DNA of 47,212 bases from an uncultured beta proteobacterium (GTDB taxonomy: Bacteria > Pseudomonadota > Gammaproteobacteria > Burkholderiales > Rhodocyclaceae), in NCBI GenBank assembly GCA_903922075.1, contig CAIXSK010000062.1:1-47212 (forward strand), written 5' to 3'. Positions 4,827 through 33,740 of the stretch are shown here, piece after piece. The translations under genes and the position numbers were made by a program. Below the pieces are notes generated by a model that searched no databases, was not told where the DNA came from, and was given only the letters and a program-made list of their open reading frames with translations. Position 1 is the first letter of the stretch. The number at the start of each line of letters is the position of its first letter.

Positions 4827-4831
4827 ATCTG
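4827..4831. repeat. Left copy of the 5-bp target-site duplication (ATCTG)
   Basis: ATCTG directly precedes the TGTGCC terminus of the transposon and recurs directly after the other terminus (33736-33740). Five base pairs is the duplication length of Tn7-family transposition. Confidence 0.93.
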
Positions 4832-5009: not shown

Positions 5010-6347
5010 TTATTTTGCGGCTTCAGACTCGAAATCTGGCCTCATCAGGTGACTTTGTACGTCCTTGAGATTCAGGAGGAGATTGCTCAAGGGCGCCAGA
5101 ATTGGAGCTGGCACCCGGGCGATGACCTCACGTAGGGTGACCGACTTTCCCTCTGCCCAAATATCAATGCAAGCCTGCTCGAGATGCGGCCATGCATTGA
5201 CAACATGTTCATCCTGACGCCGGCGTAGATAGTCCTTCCAGCGCTCGCCGAGTTGCCGAGTGAGCATATTCGCGCGTAGATACAGCAGTCTGGTATCGAT
5301 ATTTAGTCGCTGTGCTGCCTCTCGCACGGTGATTGGCGTCGGCAACACAAGAAATGCCTGGAGTTGGTTTTCAATTTCTGTCCAGTTTCGCTCACGCTTC
5401 ACCGTGCGAGTTCGTGGTTTGGGCTGGGGCAGGTTCAGAACTAGCTGAGGCTCAATTTGCGGGCACACCCACGTCGATAAATCTCCGCTCAAAAGCTGTG
5501 TCAGGCTGGCTCCACTGTGAGCTGCAATCTTTAGGCTGGCCTTCAGGGTTGGTGTGCCATCACCCTTCAACCAGTTGTGGACAGTGCTTTTGGCGACGCC
5601 AATACGTCGAGCGAAGAGAGCACTTTGCCCGTTGTCCATCTCCTCGATGATTTGCGATATTGCATTGATGAGGTTGTCGCGCGTTGGTGTGCTCGCCAAA
5701 GTTTGCTGAGCATGAACCAACTCACCAATTTGCCGTGCGGCCCATCGTTCAGCAGGGTCGATTGTGGTAGTAGCTGGCATTTCCCCCGCTTTCCCAAGGA
5801 ACTCTCCACAATGAGTGCACCAGCCGGGAACTACATAGGCAGCGGTATGACGAATATTGTCTTTACCGCAATGAGGGCAATGTGTCTCGAGCGAGCAAGC
5901 GTGTCGCGAACAAACGGAAACCTCAGCAGACTCCCAAGCCAGGCGGAAATAGGGTTCCCGGCCTTGTGCAAGGTCCTCGGCAAAGCAGGAAGGACAGAAT
6001 TGGCCTCGCGTGACGATGGAAAGGCCACTTCGGGAAATGACGTATTGCCATGGCAGGAAGGTTAATTTGTCCAGGTTCGGGACAGCGGTGAGTTCTGACA
6101 GAGCGGCCGACCAGGTTTCAGCCGACTCACAAGTGCTAGCCAATCGCCGTTGGTGCCAGTCGAATTGCTGGCTGACATCGTGCTCGATACGTTGTGCAAT
6201 CGAGCGCGAGAGCGCCAAGGTGGATACCGAGTGAGATACTGCGAGCCGGCAGAAGTAGCTGGGTAGGCTTTCAACATCGCCGGTGCCTTCGCCCAAAGGT
6301 TGAAGGGCATGCAACTCGGAGCGTGGGTTGTTGAGCACGGAATTCAT
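5010..6347 (-). CDS. tniQ: TniQ/TnsD-family target-site selection protein
   Basis: This 445-aa protein has an N-terminal TniQ domain (LPSYFCRLAVSHSVSTLALS) with a zinc-ribbon region: CPSC near residue 120, CSRH and CPHCG near 150-160, CTHCG near 180. A helix-turn-helix follows (ARRIGVAKSTVHNWLKGDG, about 245-265), then a C-terminal region with another HTH-like segment (TVREAAQRLNIDTRLLYLRA). The size is close to TnsD, which binds a fixed chromosomal site and recruits TnsC, rather than to the short TniQ of CRISPR-associated elements. The gene overlaps tnsC by 4 nt (ATGA) and is last in the operon. Given where the element sits, the inferred target is the tRNA-Gly gene; the sequence does not prove the DNA contact. 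Confidence 0.9.
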   Translation of the reverse strand: MNSVLNNPRSELHALQPLGEGTGDVESLPSYFCRLAVSHSVSTLALSRSIAQRIEHDVSQQFDWHQRRLASTCESAETWSAALSELTAVPNLDKLTFLPWQYVISRSGLSIVTRGQFCPSCFAEDLAQGREPYFRLAWESAEVSVCSRHACSLETHCPHCGKDNIRHTAAYVVPGWCTHCGEFLGKAGEMPATTTIDPAERWAARQIGELVHAQQTLASTPTRDNLINAISQIIEEMDNGQSALFARRIGVAKSTVHNWLKGDGTPTLKASLKIAAHSGASLTQLLSGDLSTWVCPQIEPQLVLNLPQPKPRTRTVKRERNWTEIENQLQAFLVLPTPITVREAAQRLNIDTRLLYLRANMLTRQLGERWKDYLRRRQDEHVVNAWPHLEQACIDIWAEGKSVTLREVIARVPAPILAPLSNLLLNLKDVQSHLMRPDFESEAAK

Positions 6348-7384
6348 GCGGCCTCCCGGGTACGGTGCGGCTTGGCCGTCTTGATGGGCGGCAAATTCCG
6401 GGTCAGGCTCGGATTGATAGCGGCCTCACCCTCGAGAATTTCCTCAAGGATTCGGGTTCTCTGGGCATCGGTCAGCAGGGCGCGCTCCAATGCTTTAACC
6501 GTCCATCGCCCATCGGCTTCTGCAAACCTGGCGGCGCGCGTCAGAACGCTGCTCAAGGTGCCGACGCAACCCAGCGTGTTCTCGTGGAGCGCCTGGGCAT
6601 ATTGAACCAGCTGGTCGCCCCACACATGCGGGAGTACAGACTGAAACTTTTGCACGCAGGCGGTGAATGCCAATACATCTTCGGGACGGTCCTGTCGGTA
6701 ACGCTCGCAGTGCACAACGTGAATGCGCCGTGCCAATTGCCCAGAGAGTGAAACTAGCTGGTAAAGGTCATACGAGCCCACCATGACTATCTGGGAGCAT
6801 CCCTTGTTGGCCAAAGATTTCAACGTGTCCAACTGGATTTCAAGGCGGCTCCGCCGCGTTTGACGAATGATGTGTGCTGCCTCGTCGATGACGACAAAGC
6901 GCGTATCACGTTCCTTCAGGCAGCGCTCTACCGCGGTCCGCAGGCCCGCCAATCCACCAGGGCTGATTCCGCGCGGGCGGACCATTTTCCCTGTGGTTGG
7001 GTCAATCCCATACGCAACTTTTGGGGCACTCAAATCTTCCCCAAGTTCGGCAAGTGCCTGGGTATAAAACAGGCGCCAGGAGAAATCATCCTCGCCCGAT
7101 GACGGGGCCTCTACATAGACAGCAGGAATCAATCCCGCATCCTTATTCATCTCGGAGGTGGCCCCTTCCAAGGCCTGTTCGACCATGTAGCGGGCCAATG
7201 TGGTTTTGCCTGCCCCGGTCGGGCCAATCACGAGCAGGATGCTGTCCTGGCTGCCCGGGTAAATCAGGGTATTGAGCTCATCAATGACCTGCTTGATGCG
7301 GGTGTGTTTGATGCGCAGGTTCAGCAGAGATTCGGCTGAGGCGGGAACCGGCGTCAAGGCGGGTTGAGAAGGTTTGTGAATCAT
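6344..7384 (-). CDS. tnsC: TnsC/TniB-family AAA+ ATPase, transposition regulator
   Basis: This 346-aa AAA+ ATPase has Walker A GPTGAGKTTLARYM (near residues 54-67) and Walker B RFVVIDEAAHII (near 162-173). The N-terminal stretch LLNLRIKHTRIKQVIDELNTLIYPG resembles the TniB/TnsC start. In this family the ATPase assembles on target DNA marked by TniQ/TnsD, activates the transposase and takes part in target immunity. The start is 8 nt after the tnsAB stop; the stop overlaps the tniQ start by 4 nt. With no TnsE present, the operon appears built for TniQ-directed insertion only. Confidence 0.92.
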   Translation of the reverse strand: MIHKPSQPALTPVPASAESLLNLRIKHTRIKQVIDELNTLIYPGSQDSILLVIGPTGAGKTTLARYMVEQALEGATSEMNKDAGLIPAVYVEAPSSGEDDFSWRLFYTQALAELGEDLSAPKVAYGIDPTTGKMVRPRGISPGGLAGLRTAVERCLKERDTRFVVIDEAAHIIRQTRRSRLEIQLDTLKSLANKGCSQIVMVGSYDLYQLVSLSGQLARRIHVVHCERYRQDRPEDVLAFTACVQKFQSVLPHVWGDQLVQYAQALHENTLGCVGTLSSVLTRAARFAEADGRWTVKALERALLTDAQRTRILEEILEGEAAINPSLTRNLPPIKTAKPHRTREAA

Positions 7385-7392
7385 AGGTCACC

Positions 7393-10098
7393 TTAAAAAG
7401 TGTCAAAGTCAGGAAGGGTTTGCGGTGCTGTCGCCTCAGGCAGCGAACCGCTGGAAGGGATGGAAGGTGATGACCTGTCTTCCGCCATGGATGGGGCGGT
7501 ACTCGATGTTTCCTTGGTGAGGCTGAATTTTTTCAGGGGAGCAACGGGATTGATGCTGCCCACTTGCAACGTGTTGTAGAGCGATTTGTTTTCTTGCTGC
7601 CGCTCCAGTGCGGCGGCCAGCGCACCCTCAGGTGTGAAGACCTGCATGAACTCCCGTAGGCGCTGGCTGGCTTGCGCATCGTTCGCGTCAGCGCCACTGC
7701 GGCGGGTGTATTCCTCAGTCAGGGCACGCCGCTCGATTTCGGTCAGTTGGCCCAAGCCGACCAAGTTGCGACAGGTCGCGTGGAGCCAGCGGTCTTTGAA
7801 GCGAACGTACACGGATGAGGCATCCCACGGGTCATAGCGGACGGGTAGACTTTGACCGGCGACGCGAGGGTCGCGGAATTCCGGGTGCCAGTACAACTGC
7901 TCATTCACCTTGACGCCGCGTTGGCGGTTGACGAGGCGAACACCACCGTAGTCGACCGGCGGGCAGGTCGCAATCAGGAAATCCTGGTTGAAGAGAATCT
8001 GCCGCTGCGGGCGGGAGCCACTTTCTTTCAAGCCACGCTGAAATGCTTCTCGGGGGCTGCAATCCAGCGCGGGATGGCGCTCGTTGTCGTAATACTCGGT
8101 GGCCCAGTATTCAAGGCCAAAGTACATCGCTTCCAGTGTCCATTCCGCAAAATTCACCGGCAGATGCTTGCCGGTCACCATCCGCACGTTCTTGGTGGCT
8201 TTGGTGTTGCCGGGCAAGTTATGGACATATTCGCTGTGCGCCCGTCCGAACATGCGTTCGAGAACCGCGCCATGCCGCGGCTGGCCGGCCGGCCGAAAAC
8301 GCAGATGGACTCCCATCACCTGGAGGAAGGTTTCAAACGCTGACGACATGAAATCGCGGCCGTTATCGACCACGATGAACTCAGGCAATCGTCCGAAGCG
8401 GTTGACCATGTCGCGTATCACCATCATCACGGAGTGATAGGACGGTGGGTCGAAGGTCAGATATATCGCGACGACACGGCGCGACCAGGCGTCGACGGCC
8501 AGAGAGAGCCAAGGGCGCCCCAAGGGTTTGCCGGAACGGCTGGAAACCAACTCGATGTCGAGCTGGGTATGGTCGATATGTACATACTGAAACGGACGGC
8601 TACCATGGACGGGCGTGTCGGCGTACAGAACATCGACAAACTCACTCATCTGATAGGCCATTCGTTTGCCATGACGAACGCGCAGGTCGTGCGCAGTTTC
8701 TTCGGCCTTGATGCGGGCGATGAGGGTCGGGTAGGACGGCGCCTTGATACCGGCTTCGTCACAGGCCGCCTTCAGAATTCGGTAGCACGCCTTGTAGTTG
8801 ATGGCTTCATGGCTGCGCCAGTGAGTCTCGATGACATTCTTGAGAACGTCATCCTGCGTTTCCGTCAGTCGGGCGGTGCGATTGCCTCGAGCATCCGTAC
8901 GCGGCACCAGGGCCAGCACTTCATGGCCGCCATTGGCCAGGGCCGCATTCTGACGGGCTTGCCAGCGGCGTTGGGTACGGTCGCAGACGATGGCCAGGTG
9001 AGTGTCCGACTGCAATATGGCCTGGCGCTGCAACGCAACGTCTAACTGAGCCTGCGTATAACGGGCCAGGTCCAGTTTGCTACTTCCAGCCTCGATAACC
9101 GGTGAAATGCGCCCATTTCGAAGGGCATCTGTTAGCCATTCACGGGATAGTGTTACGGGTGAGCCAGCGCGGCGGGTGCAGACGACTTCCGATTCGCCGA
9201 CGAGAGACATCGTCAGTTCCTGGGATTCGTACTCGAAGCGAGTTCCCTCGGAAATATCGAGGACGAAATGTTCCTGGCCAGGAACTGAACCGACATGAAC
9301 CTCGCCCGCCATGAAGTCGCGTACCGTGGTGTCGCGGTAAAGCCGGCAACGTCTGGGCTCCATCAGGGTTTCACGGTCGAGGTCGGCAACAACCTGATGG
9401 TCGGCAACGGCCTTGAGCAGGACGTCTGCGGAGAAGCCATAGGGTTCGACCATCAATTCGGCCAGATAACAGGCGCCATGTTGTGAAAGTGCCGCCGTCA
9501 GACGCTGCAAGTCACCTTCAGGGCAGGGCTCTGCCGCAGGGTGGAAATAGTCTGCGAGGTGCAGTAGGTTTTCTACACGACGACGAGGGAAGGCTTCATC
9601 GCTGTAGATTCGATAGCGGATGCCCAGTTCTGCTAGCTGACGTTCAATCTGGGGAGATGACCACGTCCCGTCTGTGGCTTTGATATAGCGATACGGGTAT
9701 CTCTCCGCCAGTCGAGTCAACTTCTGCTCCGACTTCCACTCTTCGAGGGTAAAACCGTCCTCTTGAATGACCAGAAAGTCTGGGAAATGCTGAATCTTGC
9801 GAATCTCACCAGTGGCAGTATCTACGAGCTCCAGTTTTAGCTCGCAGGGCTGCGCGTAATACTCGATGACCTGCTTGTTGAACTCATGGTCGACGGCGGC
9901 GGCAAACTCGATATGCCGGCTCTCCGTTCGGATTTCACGTCCCATCTTCCGGCTGGCCATCAATGTAATGACATTCCCGCCACGCGATTTAACCTCGCGT
10001 ACAGGGGCCAGGGTGCGTGCCTTCAAAATGAGTTCGCGCCCGGCACGAGGTGTGCCGAGGTGCTCGAAGAGTTCGGTAATCTGTTCCTTGTTCAACAT
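7393..10098 (-). CDS. tnsAB: Fused TnsA-TnsB transposase (TnsAB)
   Basis: A single 901-aa chain combines both strand-cutting enzymes. Residues about 40-170 form a TnsA-like PD-(D/E)xK nuclease: E64 in RHIEF, D107 in HFPDFLV, and E120-x-K122 in LEEWKSE. A linker and HTH-rich region follow, then a DDE integrase core: D509 in VHIDHTQLD, D578 in FIVVDNGRDF, and E614 in AVLERMFG, with 35 residues between the last two. A Mu-type C-terminal beta-barrel follows (PVRYDPWDASSVYVRF). TnsA cuts the 5' ends and TnsB the 3' ends, giving cut-and-paste. The ATG at 10098 has AGGTC 4 nt upstream; the longer ORF to 10257 overlaps the divergent promoter region and is rejected. Confidence 0.94.
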   Translation of the reverse strand: MLNKEQITELFEHLGTPRAGRELILKARTLAPVREVKSRGGNVITLMASRKMGREIRTESRHIEFAAAVDHEFNKQVIEYYAQPCELKLELVDTATGEIRKIQHFPDFLVIQEDGFTLEEWKSEQKLTRLAERYPYRYIKATDGTWSSPQIERQLAELGIRYRIYSDEAFPRRRVENLLHLADYFHPAAEPCPEGDLQRLTAALSQHGACYLAELMVEPYGFSADVLLKAVADHQVVADLDRETLMEPRRCRLYRDTTVRDFMAGEVHVGSVPGQEHFVLDISEGTRFEYESQELTMSLVGESEVVCTRRAGSPVTLSREWLTDALRNGRISPVIEAGSSKLDLARYTQAQLDVALQRQAILQSDTHLAIVCDRTQRRWQARQNAALANGGHEVLALVPRTDARGNRTARLTETQDDVLKNVIETHWRSHEAINYKACYRILKAACDEAGIKAPSYPTLIARIKAEETAHDLRVRHGKRMAYQMSEFVDVLYADTPVHGSRPFQYVHIDHTQLDIELVSSRSGKPLGRPWLSLAVDAWSRRVVAIYLTFDPPSYHSVMMVIRDMVNRFGRLPEFIVVDNGRDFMSSAFETFLQVMGVHLRFRPAGQPRHGAVLERMFGRAHSEYVHNLPGNTKATKNVRMVTGKHLPVNFAEWTLEAMYFGLEYWATEYYDNERHPALDCSPREAFQRGLKESGSRPQRQILFNQDFLIATCPPVDYGGVRLVNRQRGVKVNEQLYWHPEFRDPRVAGQSLPVRYDPWDASSVYVRFKDRWLHATCRNLVGLGQLTEIERRALTEEYTRRSGADANDAQASQRLREFMQVFTPEGALAAALERQQENKSLYNTLQVGSINPVAPLKKFSLTKETSSTAPSMAEDRSSPSIPSSGSLPEATAPQTLPDFDTF

Positions 10099-10161
10099 CG
10101 CTGACCTAAAAATCCTGCTGATGTGAACGTGTAGGAACGGCACCTGCGCTAGAATGACGAT

Positions 10162-10179
10162 TCGGTCGTATATGACCGA
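10162..10179. promoter_or_regulatory. Palindromic operator candidate between tnsAB and the DUF6471 gene
   Basis: TCGGTC-GTATAT-GACCGA is a perfect 6-bp inverted repeat with a 6-bp AT-rich centre. It lies in the 124-bp divergent gap, just downstream of a TAGAAT -10-like box (10150-10155, plus strand). It is well placed to control the DUF6471 gene and perhaps tnsAB. The centre also holds TATACG on the minus strand, a possible -10 for tnsAB. Confidence 0.5.
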
Positions 10180-10222
10180 TTTGTGGCTTCTTGCCCCTAT
10201 CGTCACCTTGAGCCAGAACCCA

Positions 10223-10534
10223 ATGCGCGAATCGAAATCCACCCAAAAGAGAGTCACGGGGCCGCTGAAGCTTCGACCGGAGGTTGCCTACACACCATGG
10301 GAGGACCGAGCGAAGGAGGTGTTGGTCGAGGAGATGCGGAAGAGGAAACTTGGCTACAAGGAGTTGGCCCGGCTCTTGGAGCCTTACGGCATCGATGAGA
10401 CACCAGACCAAATTAACCGCAAGGCGAACCGGAAGCGGTTTTCGGCGGCGTTCCTGTTGGCGTGCCTGGCAGCGATGGAGGTGACTGCAGTCGAGGTGCC
10501 GACTCAGCTTGGGGTGCCGAAATCGTACAAATGA
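10223..10534 (+). CDS. DUF6471-domain small protein, likely regulator
   Basis: This 103-aa basic protein matches the DUF6471 pattern: WEDRAKEVLVEEMRKRKLGYKELARLLEPYGIDETPDQINRKANRKRFSAAFLLACLAAMEV. The central helices look like a small helix-turn-helix, and the C-terminal FSAAFLLACLAAM helix is the family signature. I chose the ATG at 10223 (MRESKSTQ) because the track start at 10154 lies upstream of the palindrome, inside the likely promoter. It is divergent from tnsAB and may set transposase expression by binding that palindrome; this is inference, since the family has no assigned function. The alternative 126-aa start cannot be excluded. Confidence 0.75.
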   Translation: MRESKSTQKRVTGPLKLRPEVAYTPWEDRAKEVLVEEMRKRKLGYKELARLLEPYGIDETPDQINRKANRKRFSAAFLLACLAAMEVTAVEVPTQLGVPKSYK

Positions 10535-18132: not shown

Positions 18133-19227
18133 TTAACAAGCAATTGGTATCCCTGCCGACGATTCCGATAGGACCGTCTTCCATCTCAAAAGCTCGACGG
18201 TGAGGTGTGTATCGGTGAGCTCAAATGCCGACACCCTCACGTCGCCTGAGACGTCATCACGCTGTAGCCGCTCCAAGGAGCGCTTCAGCCGTCGGCGAAA
18301 CTCGCGGAGTTCGCAGACCACACCGCTCCACTTGAAAAGGTCTTCAATTTTCACTGGGTATGGCTTGGCGTGCGTGCTGTAGTAGCTCGCCAGCCACGCC
18401 GGCAGGCCTGAGTATTCGTGCAGCGCGGTGTTGCTGACCGTACTCCAGGCCTCTGGCCCAAAAAGCCTGGCCATGGAGTCCAGAACGCGAAAGGAAATGA
18501 GGTCGCTGCCCTTCAACAATCGCTCCGGCGTATCTCGGCCTTGGTAGCCGTCATCGAATAAGACATCCAATAAGCGCGGCATCGGGATGTCCACGCGTTT
18601 CACCCGGATGCGCAGGTGGGCGGCATTGAGCCGAATGAGACTGTCACGGATGGCCCTGTGCGTGTTGGCGCAGTAGGTCACATTTAGGTCCCGCGCCAGT
18701 TGCCAGAAGGTCACGCTAACCCACCGCAACTCCCCACCTGGACAGAGGGGCCGCTCGTCACGGTAGTAGTTCAGACAGGCAGCAAAAACACGTCGGTCGT
18801 AATCACCCAGAGGGTGCCCCGTCAGTGTCAGGGACGTATCGCCCTGTACGCTTATCTCGACGTTCATCAGCGGCTTGTCGGTCACCTCGGAAGCTCCGAA
18901 CAAAGATGAGCGCAGCAAGGTATTCGGGATTCCCACCGTCGCTTCCCGCCAAGTAGGCAGGTAAACATCGTCGCCGCGCCGAACTGCCCGACGCTGCCGG
19001 GCCTGCCGCATCTCAGTGACTGAAGCGTTGTCGGGTAGCACCAGGACGGGTTCCTCCTCGGCAGCCATCTGCCGTAGCTGACTGCGTGCAACCGATTCGA
19101 GCGTTGCGGCTGCTGCATAGCTAAGGTCCTGGGTAAATATGTCCGTTGCGGTTTCAGCAGCGCGTCGCGCTGCCGCAGCTTGTGCCTGAAGCTCAGCAAT
19201 CTGCTCAGCGCTGCGCCGCTTGGCCAT
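18133..19227 (-). CDS. trfA: TrfA-family plasmid replication initiator
   Basis: This 364-aa protein resembles the IncP initiator TrfA over its C-terminal two thirds: DDVYLPTWREATVGIPNTLLRSSLFG, then HPLGDYDRRVFAACLNYYRDE, a winged-helix-like SVTFWQLARDLNVTYCANTHRAIRDSLIRL, and KPYPVKIEDLFKWSG. TrfA binds iterons at oriV and loads host helicase. The N-terminal 70 residues are an Ala/Glu-rich helix. The ATG at 19227 (MAKRRSAEQ) has AGGAG 7 nt upstream; the extension to 19320 overlaps the upstream gene. Translation is probably coupled, as the RHH gene ends 23 nt inside trfA. An initiator inside a transposon suggests captured plasmid DNA, or a gene kept as decoy or helper; the function here is unknown. 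Confidence 0.88.
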   Translation of the reverse strand: MAKRRSAEQIAELQAQAAAARRAAETATDIFTQDLSYAAAATLESVARSQLRQMAAEEEPVLVLPDNASVTEMRQARQRRAVRRGDDVYLPTWREATVGIPNTLLRSSLFGASEVTDKPLMNVEISVQGDTSLTLTGHPLGDYDRRVFAACLNYYRDERPLCPGGELRWVSVTFWQLARDLNVTYCANTHRAIRDSLIRLNAAHLRIRVKRVDIPMPRLLDVLFDDGYQGRDTPERLLKGSDLISFRVLDSMARLFGPEAWSTVSNTALHEYSGLPAWLASYYSTHAKPYPVKIEDLFKWSGVVCELREFRRRLKRSLERLQRDDVSGDVRVSAFELTDTHLTVELLRWKTVLSESSAGIPIAC

Positions 19228-19411
19228 GTCGGGCTCCTGATGCGCGTTCAACGTAGGCGGCCAAGAGACCGCGAAGAACGACCGATGCACAGAGGCCTTG
19301 CACCGCGCAAAGCGAGGCAAATTCGTTCTTCAGGTCATCCGGAACCCAGACTTTCATCTGGACCGAGCCGGCACGATGCCGGTCGCCAGGTTTTTCGATT
19401 TTGGTTTTCAT
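19205..19411 (-). CDS. Small ribbon-helix-helix-type DNA-binding protein upstream of trfA
   Basis: This 68-aa protein starts MKTKIEKPGDRHRAGS. The segment VQMKVWVPDDLKNEFASLCAVQGLCASVVLRGLLAAYVE has the beta strand followed by two helices typical of CopG/Arc-like regulators. The ATG at 19411 has GGAGAAG 5 nt upstream. It overlaps trfA by 23 nt, so it is very likely its co-transcribed regulator, as copy-control proteins are on plasmids. Two short palindromes just upstream of its start are good operator candidates. Family assignment is by pattern only. Confidence 0.7.
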   Translation of the reverse strand: MKTKIEKPGDRHRAGSVQMKVWVPDDLKNEFASLCAVQGLCASVVLRGLLAAYVERASGARHGQAAQR

Positions 19412-22714: not shown

Positions 22715-23935
22715 CTAACTCTGGCTGAACATGCCATTGAGAAGGAGGGGAACCCCTGAAAACACCTCGCTCTCAGCGATGCTTTTCATCGCCTCCGGCC
22801 AGCAAATCCGTTCTTGCTCAAGCCGGATGTTGTTATTCCACCTACCGGTGCGTAGTCCTTCAAAAGCATCCCGCTCAGTTGGCGTCAGTAGGGGGAGTTC
22901 AGTTTCAGAAGACGGGATGCTCTCTTCAACCCATAAGTCCTGGTAGGCCAGCAATGTAGCCGAATCCATCATGACCGACAGAAGATTGGGGAAGTAGCTT
23001 CGTGCTCGATTGAGGATGGCAAATCCGTGTGTGTCGATGTCACCCCAGTAAAGCATGGAACAATCCTGTAACCAGGTTAAGCCCGACAGCAGGCTCACCG
23101 CGTTACCAAGGCGCATGAACGCTACCGTGTCTGGAATGTCCGCTAGGGCCAACCCGGTTTCCAGGTTTTCAACAATGATGACGCGCTTGGGGGTGATGGC
23201 TAGCTCGCTTAACTCTGTCACAGGGGCTTCAATATCTCTCAGACCACCGAGCATGCTACGCAACTTCGGGCAAAGAATTCGGGCGCGTATTCTGGGCACG
23301 GGCCGTTTCAAACCACATATTGAGTAGAAGTCGGCCACATCATCGATGGCGCGAATACTTCTCAGCAGGTCGGTCACAACGCCAGCCCTCTTTTCAAGCC
23401 ATTTGGTATCAAGGCCGGCAACTGGCAGTTGTCGGGGAGCCAAGCCCGAGGAGGGATTTTTCTCCAACCAGTCGAGCATAGAAAACAGACGTGTGAAATC
23501 AGTATCGGCGTAATCGGCCAAAACACCGAAATGTCGTCCCAGGACAGTGTGGGCTGCCAGCTGTGGCCAGCGGTCTACAAAACGCTGGTAACGCTCAGCG
23601 GCTGTTCTCCAGCGCTTACCTTGACCAATGAATGATGCAACGTCACTGGGTGCGGCGATTTCCAAACTGGCCGGCAAATTTTGAGTACCCAAGCGGGACC
23701 ATTGTCGAGATACCCAAGTCAGCTTGGCTGGGCCGTGCCAGTCGCTCCAGGCTTCAACCCAATGCCTGACTCCGCCAATATCCTGAGTGGCATCGGTTTC
23801 TGTTGGGATGCCGAGATTGACGGTTATCGGCCATTGGCCTTCTCCTAACAACCAAGCTTTGTGCTGGTTGGTGTATCGGCGGGTAAGCCATTCGATGACA
23901 TCTTTAGGCAGCAGCAGCTTCTTGGCCATTGCCAT
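22715..23935 (-). CDS. jetD: Wadjet JetD, TOPRIM-domain plasmid-cleaving nuclease subunit
   Basis: This 406-aa protein has an N-terminal DUF3322 region (KKLLLPKDVIEWLTRRYTNQ) and a C-terminal DUF2220 TOPRIM nuclease: catalytic Glu in VIIVENLETGLALA and the acidic pair in MLYWGDIDTHGFAIL. In type I Wadjet JetD is the endonuclease that cuts closed circular DNA after the JetABC motor has extruded it. It overlaps the jetC 3' end by 32 nt and is last in the operon. All expected metal-binding residues are present. Confidence is high from both sequence pattern and operon order. Confidence 0.95.
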   Translation of the reverse strand: MAMAKKLLLPKDVIEWLTRRYTNQHKAWLLGEGQWPITVNLGIPTETDATQDIGGVRHWVEAWSDWHGPAKLTWVSRQWSRLGTQNLPASLEIAAPSDVASFIGQGKRWRTAAERYQRFVDRWPQLAAHTVLGRHFGVLADYADTDFTRLFSMLDWLEKNPSSGLAPRQLPVAGLDTKWLEKRAGVVTDLLRSIRAIDDVADFYSICGLKRPVPRIRARILCPKLRSMLGGLRDIEAPVTELSELAITPKRVIIVENLETGLALADIPDTVAFMRLGNAVSLLSGLTWLQDCSMLYWGDIDTHGFAILNRARSYFPNLLSVMMDSATLLAYQDLWVEESIPSSETELPLLTPTERDAFEGLRTGRWNNNIRLEQERICWPEAMKSIAESEVFSGVPLLLNGMFSQS

Positions 23936-26900
23936 CCTCCGGTTTCAACTTCAGGCGTTGGCTTTCTTCATCGTATTCAATCGGGATTGCAGCCGAGTAT
24001 TTCCGGTTCTTGATATGAATAAAGCAGGCACCGCCGATAAAGGGCTCGAGGGTCATCACCGATTTCAGCGGGGTGGCGACAATCATCTGGAAGCCGAAGG
24101 TCTTGAATATGTTCATCGCCATGGCGGTGAATTCGGCATCGGCTTTATCAAAGGCCTCATCCAGAACGACGGTTGAGAAGGTCGGCAATTCACGACCATG
24201 ACTGCCTAGTTGATAGCGCAGTGCTGCTGCCAGGCACGTCGCGGCCAATTTCTGGCGCTGGCCTCCTGACTTGCCTGCTCCACTGCGGTAGACCTCAATC
24301 TCGAGGCCGGAGGCATCAAGTTCTCGGGCAACAAATTCCACATGCTGTCGTACGTCGAGGACCAAAGCACGCCAGTTACGGTCGGCCGTTTCTTGGCTCG
24401 ATAGTTTCTTGACCAATTCATTGAGTACCGAGAAGCGAGACTCTGCCGCTTCCTTGTCCTGGCTAAAGGAGTGGCTCAGCGCATCCTTCAGGCTTTGTTT
24501 GAAGTCGAGAACATCTTTCAACATCCGGTCGTGTGTATCAATAACCAAATGGGTGCCGGGCCCGAATGGTGCGGTTTCCAGGCTTTCATTGACCACATCC
24601 ATACGGTCGCGGATGGCCTTTCGCTCCTGGTCGAGTTGGGTGGACAGGCGAGTCAGGTTTTGGTCGCTCTGCTCTTGCAATAGGCGCAGGAAGCGTTCCT
24701 CGAACTCTGGAAGCCCATCTTGTTCAAGGCGCCGCAGCTTGGCGAAGAAATCATCGGCACTGGCCATGGTGGGGTCGAGGCCGCCAGCCTCGGCTGGCCA
24801 GGTGGAAACAAACCGCTGGAAGCGCTCCTCAATAGCTCGGACATGGTTGTTAATTTGCTGGCCTAGGCCTTGGAGCTCTTTATTGATGCCTCTCACGACT
24901 TGCAGTGCGGCATTGGTCAAGTTTGTCAGGGTCAATGTGCTACTGGCTTCACCAAAGCGCTGATTGAGCGCTTCCATTTGTTGTGGGGCGATTGAGAATG
25001 CCAGAAGCTCAAACCGCAATGCGCCCATACTGATTTTGAGCTTTTCAAGCTCCGAACCTTTCGCAAGGAGGTTTGCTGCGTACGCATTTTGTTTGCGCTG
25101 CTCTGCGTCGTGTAGCTCAGCTTGCTTTTTGATTTGCTCGTCCAACGTAGCTAAGTCGGGATGTGCTTCGAGTTCCGTCCTGAGTTGTTCTTGCAGACTG
25201 GTGATGCGAGTCAGCATCGAGGCAACGTCCACCTCGCTCCATTGAAGATTGGCTAGGGTCTGACAGTGCAATAGCCGCTGCTCAGTCATTTCGCTGCGCG
25301 TTTGATGTGCTTCCAGCTCTTTGCGAAGCTTTTCGTGCTCAGTGGCCAATTCCAGGGCGCGACGTTCGTATAGCGTTCGTTTTGCCTTGTTGTCGAAACC
25401 CAGCACCCACTGGGTTTGGTCATCAATGCGGCGCCGGTCATCTTTCTCGTGGCGAATTGTGTTGTGCTTGACCTGTCCTTCTTTGGTGACGGCGCGTGTC
25501 GCATTGCGAAAAGCCTGAAGGCTGTCGACACACTCGTAGTTGAAGTGGGCTTTCAGCTCTTCACGCAGCCACTCCGTAAGTGGCCCGCGGGCAAATTTCA
25601 GTTTGCTGACGATTGAGTTCGCTCCAACCGTGCGCATCTCCGTGCTGCGTTCAATCACCCGCAAGTAAGTCAGTCGTTCCCCAATGTTTTGCTCATTGAG
25701 ATAAGCCGCGACAGCAGCGTAGTGCTTGTCCGGAACCAAGAGAGAGCGTGCAAATCCGCCGAGCACACGTTCAATAGCGCCTTGCCACTCATGCTCCTCC
25801 TCCTTCACCTCAATGAGTTCGCCCGCATAGGGCAGTTTTTCCTCGGGAATCTCCAAGGTTTTTGCCATGTGCTCCCGGATGCCCAGAAGGCGGGATGGGA
25901 TATTGGATGGATGCTTCTCCATCGCCGCAATTTCCTGGCGCGTCTCAGTAAAGTTACGTTCGCAAGTTTTGAGTTGGTCTCGCAGTTCAACGGTTTTCTC
26001 GAGCTGCTCTGCTCGCCTCTCCTTGGCGCCCAAAAGCTCTCGGCGAGCCTCATCGGCTCGTTCCGTGAATTCAGTGGCAGTGCTGGGATAGGGCCAACCG
26101 ATACCCTGGCAAGCGGTTTCCGCTTGGCTACGTTTACCGATGCGTGCATCGCGTTGCGACTCTGCTTCCTTGACGTCGCGACTTAATTGCTCGATGCGGC
26201 TACCGCCTGAATCAAGGCGCTTCTGTTGCAATCCCTGAAGGGTCTCAAATGCATTGCGTGTTGCACTCTCTTGCTCTTTTGCCTGGGCTTGCAGCCCCGC
26301 GATAGCCACTTCCTGCTCATGGATAGCAGTCGTCAAAAGGCGCTTTTTTTCTCGTTCTGAATAGGCATCGATGGCCAATGAGAGAGCTTCTAGCTCAGTT
26401 CTGGAGCGTTGGGTCGCTTCGAGCAGGAAGGATTCCGCTTGGGCGGGCTTGAGGGTTTCAATCTGCCGACGCGCTTCGACAACGGCTTTGTGCGCTTCAT
26501 TGAGTTCCTGGAACTGTGACACCAGGTTGTCGGCCAACTCGAACGTCTCGGGTGCGTCGAGCATGAAATCACGGAGGAAGGTATTGAGGTCTCCCAGATT
26601 CTTGGCGGATTGAGTCTTGTGCAGCAGGCGGAGCGCACGCTCGTTATCAATGTCGAGGAGTTGCCGAAAGCGTTCCTGATAGCTGCTGAATTCCTCCTTG
26701 ACCGTGGCATCAGGTAGGTCGAATTTGAAACGGCGTACCTCGAAATTGTGGTCCGCGAAAAACTGTAGTTCCCGAACGTCGAATGGGCGCTGGAGTATCA
26801 AATAGCGCTTGTGCACATCACCGAGTGAGCTACTCTTGCCGCGAATCCAAAAAACCTGGGCGAGAACAACGACACGCCCCGTTCCGTCGCGATAGGTCTC

Positions 26901-27278
26901 GGCAATGGCTGACCAAGTGGTTTCCGGCCGCAGATATTGGGAGACGTATTCACCCGCATCCCCTGTTTGCTGGGACCACGCCCCGCGGACATAGGTGATG
27001 AGGTTTCGGTCTTTGCCGTGGCGCTCGTCCTGACGAGCTGCTACGTTGAAGTCCACCCATTTGGGTGGGGTCAAAATGGCCGAATGGGCATCCAAAGCCG
27101 TCGACTTTCCGGAACCAGACGGGCCGAGAAATGCATAACCGCTGCGGGGAATCGAGAAATCGACGATGCCGTTAAAAGTGCCCCAGTTGAATAATTGGAT
27201 GTGGGTGAGGCGAAACTGGTTGATGTCAGCCGAGCCCTCTGCAAAGAAATTCAAGGTGCTCTGCGGGTTTCTATTCAT
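23904..27278 (-). CDS. jetC: Wadjet JetC, SMC/MukB-like ATPase
   Basis: This 1124-aa SMC-type protein has N-terminal Walker A FLGPSGSGKSTALDAH, two long coiled coils (about residues 240-480 and 610-900) around a hinge-like centre (IPSRLLGIREHMAKTLEIPEEKLPYAGELIEV), and C-terminal signature SGGQRQKLAATCLAAALRYQL with Walker B FSTVVLDEAFDKADAEF. Two JetC copies with JetA and JetB form the loop-extruding motor that recognises small circular DNA. I chose the ATG at 27278 because GGGAG lies 6 nt upstream; the ATG 6 nt earlier has no spacing. It overlaps jetB by 8 nt. All ATPase motifs are intact. Confidence 0.95.
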   Translation of the reverse strand: MNRNPQSTLNFFAEGSADINQFRLTHIQLFNWGTFNGIVDFSIPRSGYAFLGPSGSGKSTALDAHSAILTPPKWVDFNVAARQDERHGKDRNLITYVRGAWSQQTGDAGEYVSQYLRPETTWSAIAETYRDGTGRVVVLAQVFWIRGKSSSLGDVHKRYLILQRPFDVRELQFFADHNFEVRRFKFDLPDATVKEEFSSYQERFRQLLDIDNERALRLLHKTQSAKNLGDLNTFLRDFMLDAPETFELADNLVSQFQELNEAHKAVVEARRQIETLKPAQAESFLLEATQRSRTELEALSLAIDAYSEREKKRLLTTAIHEQEVAIAGLQAQAKEQESATRNAFETLQGLQQKRLDSGGSRIEQLSRDVKEAESQRDARIGKRSQAETACQGIGWPYPSTATEFTERADEARRELLGAKERRAEQLEKTVELRDQLKTCERNFTETRQEIAAMEKHPSNIPSRLLGIREHMAKTLEIPEEKLPYAGELIEVKEEEHEWQGAIERVLGGFARSLLVPDKHYAAVAAYLNEQNIGERLTYLRVIERSTEMRTVGANSIVSKLKFARGPLTEWLREELKAHFNYECVDSLQAFRNATRAVTKEGQVKHNTIRHEKDDRRRIDDQTQWVLGFDNKAKRTLYERRALELATEHEKLRKELEAHQTRSEMTEQRLLHCQTLANLQWSEVDVASMLTRITSLQEQLRTELEAHPDLATLDEQIKKQAELHDAEQRKQNAYAANLLAKGSELEKLKISMGALRFELLAFSIAPQQMEALNQRFGEASSTLTLTNLTNAALQVVRGINKELQGLGQQINNHVRAIEERFQRFVSTWPAEAGGLDPTMASADDFFAKLRRLEQDGLPEFEERFLRLLQEQSDQNLTRLSTQLDQERKAIRDRMDVVNESLETAPFGPGTHLVIDTHDRMLKDVLDFKQSLKDALSHSFSQDKEAAESRFSVLNELVKKLSSQETADRNWRALVLDVRQHVEFVARELDASGLEIEVYRSGAGKSGGQRQKLAATCLAAALRYQLGSHGRELPTFSTVVLDEAFDKADAEFTAMAMNIFKTFGFQMIVATPLKSVMTLEPFIGGACFIHIKNRKYSAAIPIEYDEESQRLKLKPEDGNGQEAAAA

Positions 27279-28014
27279 GCTCATCTCCCGTGCTTTGCTC
27301 TTCGTCATCGCCTTCCAGCGGGCCATTTGCATGGTGAGAAAGTCCGCGCTGCTGGATGTCCTGATAGGTGCGCGTGAGCGCTTGAATTTCCTCGGCCGGG
27401 AAAAGTAGTTTCAGCGTCGGTGAAACCTCGAAACGGTCATCCGCCCCGCGGATTTTCTGAAGAAAGTTGAGTTTCTTGGCTTTTTCAATGGCGCCTTGGC
27501 ATTGCTTGTCGAAACGCGCATGGTCGACATTGCCGGTCCGCTCGTAGACACTAAGGTGTTCAATCATCTCCAACCAAGAGACCACAGCACGGTTGCCATC
27601 AGTATTTGCCTGAATGAGCCGTTGGCGGAGGAAGAGGATGAGTACCGATTCCATGAAGGTGAGATTCGCCCGCCGTAACAAAATGGGAATCTCAATGTCG
27701 TCGGCCGCAACCTGGCGCGTAAATGCCACCTTCTGCTCTGGGTCAATCACTAACTCGAGAAAAAGCTCGTGCAGGCGCTGGCGGATGGCCGCTTCATCCC
27801 GTAGGAGCGTTGCCCAAAGGTTGGCCTGGCGCCGTCCGTCAACGGCAGGGCCGAGCAGGAGCTGAACAATTACCCGACGCGTTTCGAGGGGAAGCATTCC
27901 CATATCGCCGGGGAATACGGCAGCGTCTACCTCCTCCTTGCTCTGCGCTTGGTCAGTGGGTTCGTCCGGCTGAAGCGCTTCACTGGAGCAACTGTCATTC
28001 GTTGAATAGTTCAA
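27271..28014 (-). CDS. jetB: Wadjet JetB (DUF4194, MukE-like)
   Basis: JetB is the winged-helix MukE-like partner of JetA. The family core is clear: LPLETRRVIVQLLLGPAVDGRRQANLWATLLRDEAAIRQRLHELFLELVID, then VAFTRQVAADDIEIPILLRRANLTFMESVLILFLRQRL, and a C-terminal VSPTLKLLFPAEEIQALTRTYQ. From the TTG at 28014 the product is 247 aa; GGGAG lies about 8 nt upstream and the overlap with jetA is 20 nt. The track starts at 28092 (also TTG) and 28071 (ATG) lie deeper in jetA without a ribosome-binding site, and would add a tail unlike the family. The acidic C-terminus overlaps jetC by 8 nt. Confidence 0.9.
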   Translation of the reverse strand: MNYSTNDSCSSEALQPDEPTDQAQSKEEVDAAVFPGDMGMLPLETRRVIVQLLLGPAVDGRRQANLWATLLRDEAAIRQRLHELFLELVIDPEQKVAFTRQVAADDIEIPILLRRANLTFMESVLILFLRQRLIQANTDGNRAVVSWLEMIEHLSVYERTGNVDHARFDKQCQGAIEKAKKLNFLQKIRGADDRFEVSPTLKLLFPAEEIQALTRTYQDIQQRGLSHHANGPLEGDDEEQSTGDEHE

Positions 28015-29461
28015 GCATGCTCTCCCTGACAAAATAGATGGCCGGTACCTTGGCCTTTCGTTGTTTTTCATCGCTGCCGAGCCACGAGACAAGCTCGGTC
28101 TCGCTAGTGACTTCTCCGTGCTTGGCTCCTAACGCAACGTAGCCAACGACACTGCCAAAGCCCTGTTCCGCAGGAAACCTATTCAGCAACTGGCCAACAG
28201 TGATTTGTGACTGTTCGGAAAGCGCTTCTCTGAGATGTTGGCGCAAGGTGCGGAAATCGATTTCAGACTGGCGCACCAGCTCCTCTACGACATCAAGTCC
28301 CAGTTCCGACGGCTCCGCTTCTGGCATGGCGGTATCGGCAACATTCAGGCTCGGGTCGTGAAGTTCCCACTGGCTCACCGAGCGAAGGCGACTACTGGTT
28401 AGCGACAGGGAATAATCGAGCTGCGAGTTCGGGCGAATGGAGTCACGCGCCTGAAGAGCTGCCTGCTGCGCTTCGCGCAATAGACTGTGCAGACGTCGCT
28501 GTTCTTGGAACTCACGGCTCTGCACGAAGGTTTTGAGGCTACGGGCGAATTGCTGGACGACTTCATGCACACTGCCGCCTTCGGCCATCAAGGTTCCCGT
28601 CAGGTTTTGCAGGAAGCGTCGTTCCTTCAATTCCAAGCCGCGCGCAAACGCGCGGGAGGTGACAGATTCCAGGGACTCCATCAGCGTTGCCGCTTGCTCA
28701 CCATCCGTTAGCAGGCGCCAGAAGGCGTTAAAGGTTTTTCCATGCTCACTCTGGGCAATCAGGTCCACACCTGCAAACAACGCTTCCAGAACCTCGCCTC
28801 GACTGCCGTCGCTCTCCATCAAGCTTTGGCGGAGTCCTCGATTCAGCTTGTCGAACTCATCACGTACGTTGCGGAAATCTGAGGCCAATTCTTCGGCGAG
28901 GGCAATGATTTCGCGGACACGTTCGAGCGCCCGCTCTTCGGGGAGTGTTTTGACGCCCTCTCGTTCTAATGCCAGAAGTTCGGCATCGATGCGTTCTCGT
29001 TCAGCGATGAGCGTGGCTCGTCTCGTTTCTGGGTTGGCATCTGTCTCGTCGGCTAGGCGAGTTAGCTGCAGAATGACCGTGGCTAGACGACTTTCGGTGG
29101 CTGCGGTCCGGGGCTTCAACAAGCCATTCAAAAAGCGTAAAGCGCTCGTCGCTTCCGCGGTCAGTTCGAATTCTTCTTCACTTGCCCCAGCTGGAAATCG
29201 CCGGCTGAGCCAGCCTTCACCAATCCAGTCTGCAACGTAAGCTTGCGGTGTCTGCGGGAGGTCATGGCCATGAGCACGGAGCGTATCGATTTCTCGCGAT
29301 AAACGTTCGTGGAAAACCGAGCTGGGAAGGGTTTTCTCCTGTTCGAGCAGTAGGCATTGCATCAATCCCATTACCAATGGGGCCTTGTCGGCAGCCAGTA
29401 ATCGCCATAAAGGTCGGCTACGCAAGGCGATAAGAGCCGCTGAAGCACGCAGTGCTTTCAT
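27995..29461 (-). CDS. jetA: Wadjet JetA (DUF3375, MukF-like kleisin)
   Basis: This 488-aa helical protein matches DUF3375: ALRSRPLWRLLAADKAPLVMGLMQCLLLEQ at the N-terminus, AYVADWIGEGWLSRRFPAGASEEEFELTAEATSALRFL, and a coiled-coil middle. It acts as the kleisin bridge joining JetC heads and holding JetB. The ATG at 29461 (MKALRASA) has AAGG about 8 nt upstream; the GTG at 29470 is less well spaced. It opens the jetA-B-C-D operon, whose promoter carries two palindromes of the likely WYL repressor. Confidence 0.94.
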   Translation of the reverse strand: MKALRASAALIALRSRPLWRLLAADKAPLVMGLMQCLLLEQEKTLPSSVFHERLSREIDTLRAHGHDLPQTPQAYVADWIGEGWLSRRFPAGASEEEFELTAEATSALRFLNGLLKPRTAATESRLATVILQLTRLADETDANPETRRATLIAERERIDAELLALEREGVKTLPEERALERVREIIALAEELASDFRNVRDEFDKLNRGLRQSLMESDGSRGEVLEALFAGVDLIAQSEHGKTFNAFWRLLTDGEQAATLMESLESVTSRAFARGLELKERRFLQNLTGTLMAEGGSVHEVVQQFARSLKTFVQSREFQEQRRLHSLLREAQQAALQARDSIRPNSQLDYSLSLTSSRLRSVSQWELHDPSLNVADTAMPEAEPSELGLDVVEELVRQSEIDFRTLRQHLREALSEQSQITVGQLLNRFPAEQGFGSVVGYVALGAKHGEVTSETELVSWLGSDEKQRKAKVPAIYFVRESMLELFNE

Positions 29462-29517
29462 TGGCGGCACCTTACATCATGGCTTGTTTTGAGCATTGTC
29501 CTATCCAAAATAGATGA

Positions 29518-29568
29518 ACGTATAAAAACTATACGTTCAAAATTGCCGTACGTAAAGTTTTTATACGT
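29518..29568 (-). promoter_or_regulatory. jet operon promoter with two 19-bp palindromic operators
   Basis: The site ACGTATA-N5-TATACGT is perfect at 29518-29536 and nearly so at 29550-29568 (one mismatch), 32 bp apart or about three helical turns. On the minus strand TTTACG (29556-29551), a 17-bp spacer and TATAGT (29533-29528) make a good sigma70 promoter for jetA. The -35 box lies in one operator and the -10 box in the other, so a bound repressor would block polymerase. The divergent WYL-protein gene starts 18 bp beyond. Confidence 0.8.
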
Positions 29569-29585
29569 GTGCTACAGTGGTTGGC

Positions 29586-30473
29586 ATGAAAAAGATGGCC
29601 AATCAACGCGCAGAACCGGACTTGCCTACCCGCTGGGGGCCTGAGAAACGGCTTGAGTTCATCGACTTTCGCTTGCGATGGGACGGTCGATTGAACCGGG
29701 GGGACATCTCCGATTTCTTCGGAATCTCGACACCACAAGCCTCCCTCGACATTGCTCGCTACCTAGAGATGGCGCCTCTGAATGCTGTTTACGACCGCAG
29801 TGAGCGAAGCTACGTCGCAACTCGAGACTTCCAACCGGTTTTCCCCTCCAGTCAGCCACAGAAATACCTCAATGACTTGCTAATGCAAGCATATGGCATA
29901 TTAGACCAAGGTGTCAGTTTTTCCGGGTGGCTACCATCAGTTGCCGTTGCACCGACGCCAGCCCGAACCTTGCGGGCCGAGACCCTGATTGCGTTGATAG
30001 GGTCAATACGGCGATGCCAGGCTCTTGAGATGGCTTATCAGTCGATGACGAGTCCGATTCCAAAAAAACGCCTTGTTTCCCCTCGAGCGCTAGGGTTCGA
30101 TGGGCACCGCTGGCATGTTCGGGTTTATTGTCACCAAGAGGACGGATTTCGGGACTTTGTTATTGCTCGGATTCTCTCGCTCGGAAATGAGCAGCAACCC
30201 CCAACAGTGCCGCCCATCGACCAGGATTGGGAGACCTTGGTTACCCTCGTATTGGCGCCAAACCCTGGATTGCCCGATGCACATCAGCGGGTTATTGAAC
30301 TGGACTATGGAATGGTGAATGGCGAGCTACGCTTTGAATGCAAACGAGCGCTGCTGCTTTACGTTGTTCGGAACCTTGGCTTGGATGGCGCAGAAGGGAA
30401 AGCTCCCAGGGTTCAACAAATTGTCCTGCGTAATCTTGCCGAGATTGCCCCACTTTTGCCCGCGCAGAACTAA
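29586..30473 (+). CDS. BrxR/CapW-like WYL-domain transcriptional repressor of the Wadjet operon
   Basis: This 295-aa protein has an N-terminal winged helix (GPEKRLEFIDFRLRWDGRLNRGDISDFFGISTPQASLDIARYLEMAP, the BrxR-like opening), a central WYL domain (ALEMAYQSMTSPIPKKRLVSPRALGFDGHRWHVRVYCHQEDGFRDFVIARI) and a C-terminal WCX-like part. Members sit beside defence operons, bind inverted repeats as dimers and repress until a signal reaches the WYL pocket. Two matching palindromes lie between it and jetA, over the jetA promoter, so control of Wadjet and itself is likely. The start is uncertain among GTG 29577, ATG 29586 and ATG 29595; the middle one is used. Confidence 0.9.
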   Translation: MKKMANQRAEPDLPTRWGPEKRLEFIDFRLRWDGRLNRGDISDFFGISTPQASLDIARYLEMAPLNAVYDRSERSYVATRDFQPVFPSSQPQKYLNDLLMQAYGILDQGVSFSGWLPSVAVAPTPARTLRAETLIALIGSIRRCQALEMAYQSMTSPIPKKRLVSPRALGFDGHRWHVRVYCHQEDGFRDFVIARILSLGNEQQPPTVPPIDQDWETLVTLVLAPNPGLPDAHQRVIELDYGMVNGELRFECKRALLLYVVRNLGLDGAEGKAPRVQQIVLRNLAEIAPLLPAQN

Positions 30474-30474
30474 G

Positions 30475-31119
30475 TCACTGGTGATTAACGATGGGCAGAA
30501 TGTCCATAAAGTCCGTGTGCATCTGACGAACCTGCACCATGTTCTCTGGATTGCCCGAAAGAATCGCTAGTAACTGTGATGTCAGTGCAACAACGGCATT
30601 GGCGTTCCGAATGACGTCGTAAATCAATTGTGCCGGATAACCACTCATCGTTCGGGATAAGGGATGCAAACCGCCATGGGCATAACTGTTCATGGCCTTC
30701 CAGGTCACCTCTTTGTATTCCCGCAGCTGCGCGACGATGCCTGCCGGCGCATCAGGGTTGGCCTCCAGCTGCTTGAGCATTTCCGCCAGGCCTTCTCCCT
30801 CATTTGCTCGTTTCGCCGACTCCATGGTCAGAGGTTCGGATAGCTTTGTAACCCAGTTCTCGCTCGCCGCGTGGAGCAACCAGATTCCGCGCACTAGGCT
30901 TTCAAACTGGGGCCGGGTCAATGCAATCGCCGAAGAAAACAACCCTTGCTCGAACAGAACCAGCGCACTCACTGCATGCTCCAGCGACAGTAGCCCGGAT
31001 TGAAATGCGGTGATGAACCGTACGTCAGGGTAAGGAGTCAGGGTCTGTACGTGTTGTTGAACCCGCTCATGAAACGTAGCGGTTCGCTCAATGAGCTGGA
31101 GGAGTTTTTCTTCTGTCAC
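30475..31119 (-). CDS. Conserved hypothetical protein (DUF6988/DUF5677-like), alpha-helical
   Basis: This 214-aa protein is predicted all-helical. Blocks visible are FQSGLLSLEHAVSALVLFEQGLFSSAIALTRPQFESLVRGIWLLHAA and, later, MNSYAHGGLHPLSR, a pattern I associate tentatively with DUF6988 or DUF5677 proteins found near defence genes. The His in SYAHGG may be functional. It starts with GTG at 31119 and has a weak ribosome-binding site. Its stop is one base from that of the WYL gene (convergent), and it is divergent from the 31193 gene. Function is unknown. Confidence 0.6.
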   Translation of the reverse strand: MTEEKLLQLIERTATFHERVQQHVQTLTPYPDVRFITAFQSGLLSLEHAVSALVLFEQGLFSSAIALTRPQFESLVRGIWLLHAASENWVTKLSEPLTMESAKRANEGEGLAEMLKQLEANPDAPAGIVAQLREYKEVTWKAMNSYAHGGLHPLSRTMSGYPAQLIYDVIRNANAVVALTSQLLAILSGNPENMVQVRQMHTDFMDILPIVNHQ

Positions 31120-31192
31120 GACAATGATTCTAAGAAGGCCTATGCGATTATTTTATGCGGATTGGCTTGATGTATCTGGAAGGAATCGAAAG

Positions 31193-32389
31193 ATGGAGAA
31201 GACGGACAAGCCGGTTGACCGTGAAACCCTCTACAACGAGGTCTGGACGGACCCCGTAACGGTAGTAGCGCCACGCTACGGCCTCTCGGATGTTGGGCTC
31301 GCGAAAATCTGCCGAGCCTTGGCCATCCCCCTACCGAGCCGCGGCTACTGGGCAAAGGTGAAGGCGGGGCGCGTCATGGGGCGCGCACCGCTCCCTAGAC
31401 TCAAAACCCCAGGTCCGGTGCCGACTGGCTTGGTCAAGCTGCCTCCGGAAAAGGCCGCTGTACGCCAGGCAGCCAGACAATCGGCCGCCAAGATTCGCAA
31501 AGAAACGCCGCCATTGCCGCCACCGGAGGAGTCACAACCATCAGCTGCCCACCCGTTGGTTCGTGCCGCTGCCAAGCGTCTGAAACAACGGGATGGTTGG
31601 CCACCAGACACGTTGCTTCGCTCAGCCCCCAAAGAGGTGCTGCATCTTTCAGTGACGCGTGATGCACTCGACCGAGCACTCGGGATTACGGATGCCCTTA
31701 TAAAAGCGCTTATCCAGCGAGGCTTTGATGTGGAGGTCGATGGCGAGCGGGGGGCAACCACCCTGAAATACGTCGAAACCGGAACCAGGTTGGAGTTCAC
31801 GTTGACCGAATACATACGTCGAACGCGCCACGAAATTACTCCGGCAGAGGAGCGTGCCCGAAAACGCTACTGGGAACGTTCGCGCTGGGATAACTCAGTC
31901 AGTTATCCGCATGTGCCGATGTATGACTACACCCCAACTGGAACTCTCACCATTCAGATTGGCCGATGGCCATCACGAAACTGGAAGGACACTCCAAAAA
32001 CCCAACTCGAAAAACGCCTTGGAGAGGTTGTTGGTGGCATCGTAGCCCTTGCCCAGGAAACGCACGCCAAAGAGGTTGAAGAGGCGCGACGCAAAGAAGC
32101 GCACCGGTGCGCTGTGGAGCGCTATGAGTTTCTAACCAAACGACGCGAAGATGAAGTCGAACGCTTCAAGGAAGTCGAAGCCAGGGCGACAGATTGGGAG
32201 CGGGCCATGCGCCTGCGTGCGTTTGCGGACGCAGTTGAGGCTCAGGCCAAGTCGGCTGGCGAACTATCCACTGAATACGTGGAGTGGCTCGCTTGGACGC
32301 GTGCGAAAGCCGATTGGCTGGACCCACTGATTCTAGTCAGCGACCCGATTCTCGATGCCCCGGAACCCAAACGCCCCGGCTATTGGTAG
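31193..32389 (+). CDS. Conserved hypothetical protein with N-terminal HTH, common in defence islands
   Basis: This 398-aa protein begins MEKTDKPVDRETLYNEVWTDPVTVVAPRYGLSDVGLAKICRALAIPLPSRGYWAKVKAG, a conserved opening that looks like a helix-turn-helix fused to a short basic arm. The middle has LHLSVTRDALDRALGITDALIKALIQRGFDVEV, and the last third is a charged coiled coil ending in WTRAKADWLDPLILVSDP. I recall this type as hypothetical near restriction and abortive genes, but have no function for it. The ATG at 31193 has AAGGA 8 nt upstream and fits the family start; the ATG at 31142 is possible. Confidence 0.65.
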   Translation: MEKTDKPVDRETLYNEVWTDPVTVVAPRYGLSDVGLAKICRALAIPLPSRGYWAKVKAGRVMGRAPLPRLKTPGPVPTGLVKLPPEKAAVRQAARQSAAKIRKETPPLPPPEESQPSAAHPLVRAAAKRLKQRDGWPPDTLLRSAPKEVLHLSVTRDALDRALGITDALIKALIQRGFDVEVDGERGATTLKYVETGTRLEFTLTEYIRRTRHEITPAEERARKRYWERSRWDNSVSYPHVPMYDYTPTGTLTIQIGRWPSRNWKDTPKTQLEKRLGEVVGGIVALAQETHAKEVEEARRKEAHRCAVERYEFLTKRREDEVERFKEVEARATDWERAMRLRAFADAVEAQAKSAGELSTEYVEWLAWTRAKADWLDPLILVSDPILDAPEPKRPGYW

Positions 32390-33735: not shown

Positions 33736-33740
33736 ATCTG
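33736..33740. repeat. Right copy of the 5-bp target-site duplication (ATCTG)
   Basis: Identical to 4827-4831 and directly abutting the ...GGCACA terminus. Confidence 0.93.

Follow-up and report, generated by a model that had tools for sequence, protein, structure and literature searches.

What controls the Wadjet operon of this uncultured beta proteobacterium, and what is the role of the WYL-domain protein encoded next to it? Wadjet is an SMC motor, which extrudes and cleaves small circular DNA. The locus was studied within a stretch of 47,212 nucleotides (contig CAIXSK010000062.1), the whole of which is called the window here. The best reading of the locus is local repression of both jetABCD and wyl by the WYL protein, which would be relieved by single-stranded DNA as in CapW.

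The jetABCD operon and its divergent WYL gene

The operon and its neighbor consist of five genes.

jetD, 22715-23935, minus strand: DUF3322 and JetD_C; Toprim-type nuclease subunit; PADLOC JetD, E 2.4e-129
jetC, 23904-27278, minus strand: SMC-like ATPase, MukB-like; PADLOC JetC, 1360 bits
jetB, 27271-28017, minus strand: DUF4194, MukE-like partner; start position approximate; overlaps the end of jetA
jetA, 27995-29461, minus strand: DUF3375, kleisin-like; ATG at 29461; PADLOC JetA, E 2.3e-191
wyl, 29586-30473, plus strand, divergent from jetA: gene for a WYL-domain repressor (wHTH-WYL-WCX) of the BrxR/CapW family

The original prediction described positions 22715-30473 as a Wadjet operon under a BrxR-like WYL regulator. 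Its coordinates are correct and the Wadjet identity is confirmed as type I jetABCD: all four subunits match PADLOC type I models at high scores, in agreement with Pfam and with PDB sequence matches. The gene order is jetA-jetB-jetC-jetD, with full-length reading frames that overlap or adjoin. The translated jetC product carries the P-loop GPSGSGKST. Plasmid restriction is the predicted function of JetABCD here.

For wyl, ATG 29586 is the preferred start; the alternative GTG 29577 is not kept in the related loci of Chromobacterium (L003) and Azonexus (L004). Residues 18-294 of the 298-residue WYL protein align with CapW and BrxR in PDB sequence matches. Membership in the WYL/BrxR family is thus upheld by Pfam and PDB matches, but the E-values place the protein closer to CapW (PDB entries 7tb5, E 2.6e-74, and 7tb6, E 7.6e-73; also 9c5g) than to BrxR (7t8k and 7qfz, E 1.6e-40 and 1.6e-27). 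By sequence, it is a member of the BrxR/CapW family with CapW as the nearer relative, and its fold is settled by the match to solved CapW structures. Mutations of R32 and of S42/Q45/S47 abolish DNA binding by CapW (PMC9122588), and all four residues are kept in the WYL protein (P0001) as R41, S51, Q54 and S56. The ligand-face and WYL-motif residues of CapW that were checked (Y145, S147, W156, R169, H171, R183, F185, R189 and W170) are kept in eight of nine cases, the exception being W156, which is replaced by arginine. DNA binding as a dimer, repression and release by single-stranded DNA are predicted for this protein by analogy with its relatives.

Three known systems are comparable. CapW of CBASS (Blankenchip et al. 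2022, PMC9122588) belongs to the same protein family and shares the DNA-contact residues and the divergent gene, but it guards CBASS where the present locus has Wadjet, an SMC system against plasmids. BrxR of BREX (Luyten 2022, PMC9122589; Picton 2022, PMC9122601) is also a repressor found beside many defence systems, Wadjet included, whereas its sequence is more distant and its gene comes first in its own BREX operon, in the same orientation. Picton et al. had listed Wadjet among the systems located no more than 50 kb from BrxR homologues. CapW-linked Bub operons (PMC13373217) likewise have a CapW-type gene beside an immunity operon, although the effector operon is different.

The whole defence cluster is borne by a 28.9-kb Tn7-like transposon (4832-33735), located 28 bp after tRNA-Gly(ccc). 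It is bounded by TGTGCCGTTA...TAACGGCACA, carries repeated GGACAnnTTATGCTTTA sites at each end and is flanked by a 5-bp target duplication, ATCTG, at 4827-4831 and 33736-33740. TniQ, TniB and a TnsA-TnsB-like fusion are encoded at 5010-10257. The cargo includes a type I RM system, AbiD, a TOTE primase-helicase, Wadjet with the WYL gene, and DUF6988. A TrfA-like plasmid replication initiator gene (18133-19320) also lies within the cargo, and a 432-aa ORF with no Pfam or PADLOC match (31091-32389) adjoins the DUF6988 gene inside the transposon.

Operators and promoters between jetA and wyl

The region between the two divergent genes holds the following features.

Possible weak third site, 29500-29516, unstranded: CCTATCCAAAATAGATG; 7.5 bits; just downstream of the expected jetA start point
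Operator A, 29515-29539, unstranded: 25-bp palindrome (10-5-10) over the jetA -10 box
jetA promoter TTTACG-17-TATAGT, 29528-29556, minus strand: -35 box TTTACG at 29551-29556, -10 box TATAGT at 29528-29533
Operator B, 29550-29568, unstranded: weaker palindrome; lies on the jetA -35 box and on the upstream portion of the wyl promoter
Candidate wyl -10 box TACAGT, 29573-29578, plus strand: 7 nt before the wyl ATG

Two 19-bp palindromes 32 bp apart had been noticed earlier, one over TTTACG and the other over TATAGT, with a 17-bp promoter spacer, and this description is borne out. Site A spans 29518-29536 (ACGTATAAAAACTATACGT) and site B spans 29550-29568 (ACGTATAAAAACTTTACGT on the minus strand), with a start-to-start distance of 32 bp; the two are identical at 18 of 19 positions in opposite orientation. 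As 19-mers, their arms pair imperfectly (7/9 in site A and 6/9 in site B), since the five central bases form a spacer. In the full operator A, TGAACGTATA-AAAAC-TATACGTTCA, all 10 arm pairs are perfect on either side of the 5-bp spacer. Similar arrangements are found for CapW of CBASS, with palindromes of about 19-24 bp over the -10 box, and for CapW of S. maltophilia, with two palindromes in one promoter. BrxR operators, with whose published geometry the 10-5-10 layout of operator A agrees, are 10-11-bp inverted repeats near the promoter, separated by a 5-bp spacer.

Within 29400-29650, TTTACG-17-TATAGT is the sole sigma-70-like promoter; it matches the consensus at 9 of 12 positions, while shuffles give 0.3. 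Its -35 box is inside site B and its -10 box inside site A, and TTTAC and TATAGT are kept in L001-L004. Among five orthologous loci, 17 of 19 columns are invariant in each of sites A and B, compared with 10 of 37 in the jetA leader. The possible third site has 13 of 17 invariant columns among five loci and is only tentatively a third operator.

Site A covers the -10 box and start region and site B the -35 box, and repression of jetABCD is therefore predicted. The WYL protein could instead activate jetABCD, in the way that the WYL regulators PafBC and SiwR switch on their targets (PMC11804915, PMC10693628). We consider this quite improbable: the strong site covers the -10 box and start region, a place where a bound protein obstructs polymerase, the nearest relatives CapW and BrxR are repressors, and jetA already has a fair sigma-70 promoter.

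On the wyl side, TACAGT is found at the same distance from the ATG in L001-L004, and a -10-like hexamer also lies 6-7 nt before the ATG in L003, L004, L121, L122, L124 and L135. Across the WYL family, the -10-like match peaks 6-7 nt before the start; enterobacterial and Acinetobacter relatives have a Shine-Dalgarno-like sequence in place of this leaderless arrangement. Given the candidate -10 box 7 nt before its ATG, the wyl mRNA looks leaderless. No -35 box is recognizable for wyl. Site B is directly upstream of the candidate -10 box, and a weaker autorepression is therefore predicted; site B probably serves the wyl promoter too.

The operator motif at other loci

WYL relatives were gathered from genomes and plasmids. 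The systems behind them include CBASS, E2/E1/JAB ubiquitin-like (Bub) operons and a PD-(D/E)XK/UvrD pair, among others. EM motif discovery in the upstream regions of nine non-Wadjet relatives, which guard CBASS, Bub or UvrD-nuclease systems, yielded CGTATAaTtAtTATACG, and in hold-out runs the motif was recovered at every training locus. When the 47-kb window is scanned with this motif, site A is the best match (20.2 bits) and site B the second (15.3 bits), with 9.4 bits in third place. When the intergenic region was resampled 20,000 times with a Markov model, the score stayed below 20.1 bits every time, and a pair of sites of at least 15.3 bits never arose. In the whole 3.27-Mb genome, only sites A and B match the pattern with at most one mismatch.

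Tandem sites 15-17 or 32-34 bp apart occur in nearly all loci of the motif-bearing clade. Bub-like loci L123, L146-L150, L156 and L157 have the operator in common with the window. The motif also occurs, at 16.0 and 15.0 bits, in the CBASS promoter belonging to a close orthologue of the experimentally tested E. coli CapW; this orthologue carries R43, S53, Q56 and S58 under the published numbering. In viral contigs, an exact search for the operator matched at 115 scattered places, the 12 specified bases being too unspecific for 2.9 million contigs, and a search of the phage collection with the wyl region gave no match. A terminator scan flags 29539-29515 on the minus strand, but a hairpin or terminator in the leader RNA of jetA, in place of a protein site, is rejected as extremely improbable: the stem overlaps the -10 box and expected start point and so would not be transcribed whole, it has only 3 G-C pairs, and tandem copies of this sequence are also found at CBASS and Bub promoters.

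Other Wadjet loci separate the regulator from jetA. The motif is absent from thirteen jetA upstream regions without a WYL neighbor (at most 7.1 bits). It is present at 15.0, 14.8 and 12.9 bits in a diverged Wadjet locus, L122/L158, whose WYL protein is 51% identical, and absent from Wadjet loci L159 and L169, which have a distant WYL protein (33%). The latter two are 94.5% identical and were counted as one line; the recognition helix of their WYL protein is IQSAAAT, versus ISTPQAS. Presence of the motif therefore tracks the regulator rather than jetA. Assignment of the palindromes as operators is supported by the motif from other systems, by conservation and by the WYL-less jetA controls. In L159/L169, a different inverted repeat, CAATGCAA / TTGCATTG, is found at about 1415-1460, about 21 bp apart, and is maybe a different operator.

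In the tree, the WYL group of the window falls within the motif-bearing clade, which is well supported (100/98). This clade also contains the L122 regulator, with a loose branching position, and the L159 protein is far outside on a long branch and is treated as a separate recruitment. Together with the motif pattern, this placement indicates that Wadjet probably recruited WYL regulators at least twice. Among 15 other genomes in which JetA was matched, 3 have a divergent WYL gene; in the remaining 12, some with contigs that include less than 1.1 kb of upstream sequence, no adjacent WYL gene was seen. WYL control is thus optional for Wadjet: the locus has the four subunits of type I Wadjet, and differs from most sampled loci of that type in its adjacent WYL regulator and operator.

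DNA similarity to the window ends at 30401 in L003 and at 30623 in L004, at or just past wyl, so the operon and regulator behave and move as one cassette. The sites might also serve wyl autoregulation only, with an incidental effect on Wadjet, since the CapW family autoregulates (PMC9122588) and every divergent locus of the clade has operators upstream of wyl. This seems just as improbable as activation: the strongest site is over the jetA -10 box, 50 bp from the wyl start, and wyl and jet remain paired across genera although their neighbors change.

Proposed control of Wadjet

It is highly probable that the WYL protein acts as a homodimeric repressor of the CapW type and is dedicated to the adjoining Wadjet operon, which would very likely be kept off until the cell is stressed. 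Binding and repression at sites A and B are predicted from their sequence and position. A dimer on the strong site A would block promoter opening for jetABCD, while a dimer on the weaker site B would block the jetA -35 box and throttle wyl. The outcome would be tight repression of Wadjet and a looser autorepression of wyl. CapW is released by single-stranded DNA, according to work cited in PMC13373217. Once the WYL domain is occupied on its ligand face (in tested CapW proteins, single-stranded DNA is the ligand), the winged helices would leave the operators; JetABCD would then be made and act on small circular DNA as known Wadjet does. The ligand and the order of occupancy proposed for this WYL protein follow from the analogy with CapW.

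In the tested CapW-CBASS system, induction through CapW is not needed for phage protection (PMC9122588), so the value of such control to Wadjet is uncertain. Given that single-stranded DNA is what CapW-type repressors sense and that plasmids are what Wadjet destroys, plasmid entry may itself be the inducer: the single strand of conjugation or rolling-circle replication would release the repressor, and Wadjet would be made only when a plasmid arrives. By analogy this is conceivable, but we regard it as rather unlikely.

A full-text search of the open-access literature, which covers it incompletely, found no study of Wadjet transcription control. The mechanism class is already known, and a specialist would expect such a Wadjet-WYL pairing to exist; Wadjet as the target and a case at the promoter level appear to be new. 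The locus suggests that the sensing of single-stranded DNA and defence against plasmids are connected. The switching-on of Wadjet has been little studied, and this locus offers a concrete and cheaply testable promoter with named sites. The clade-wide operator consensus CGTATA-N5-TATACG can be used to predict defence operons under a CapW-type repressor.
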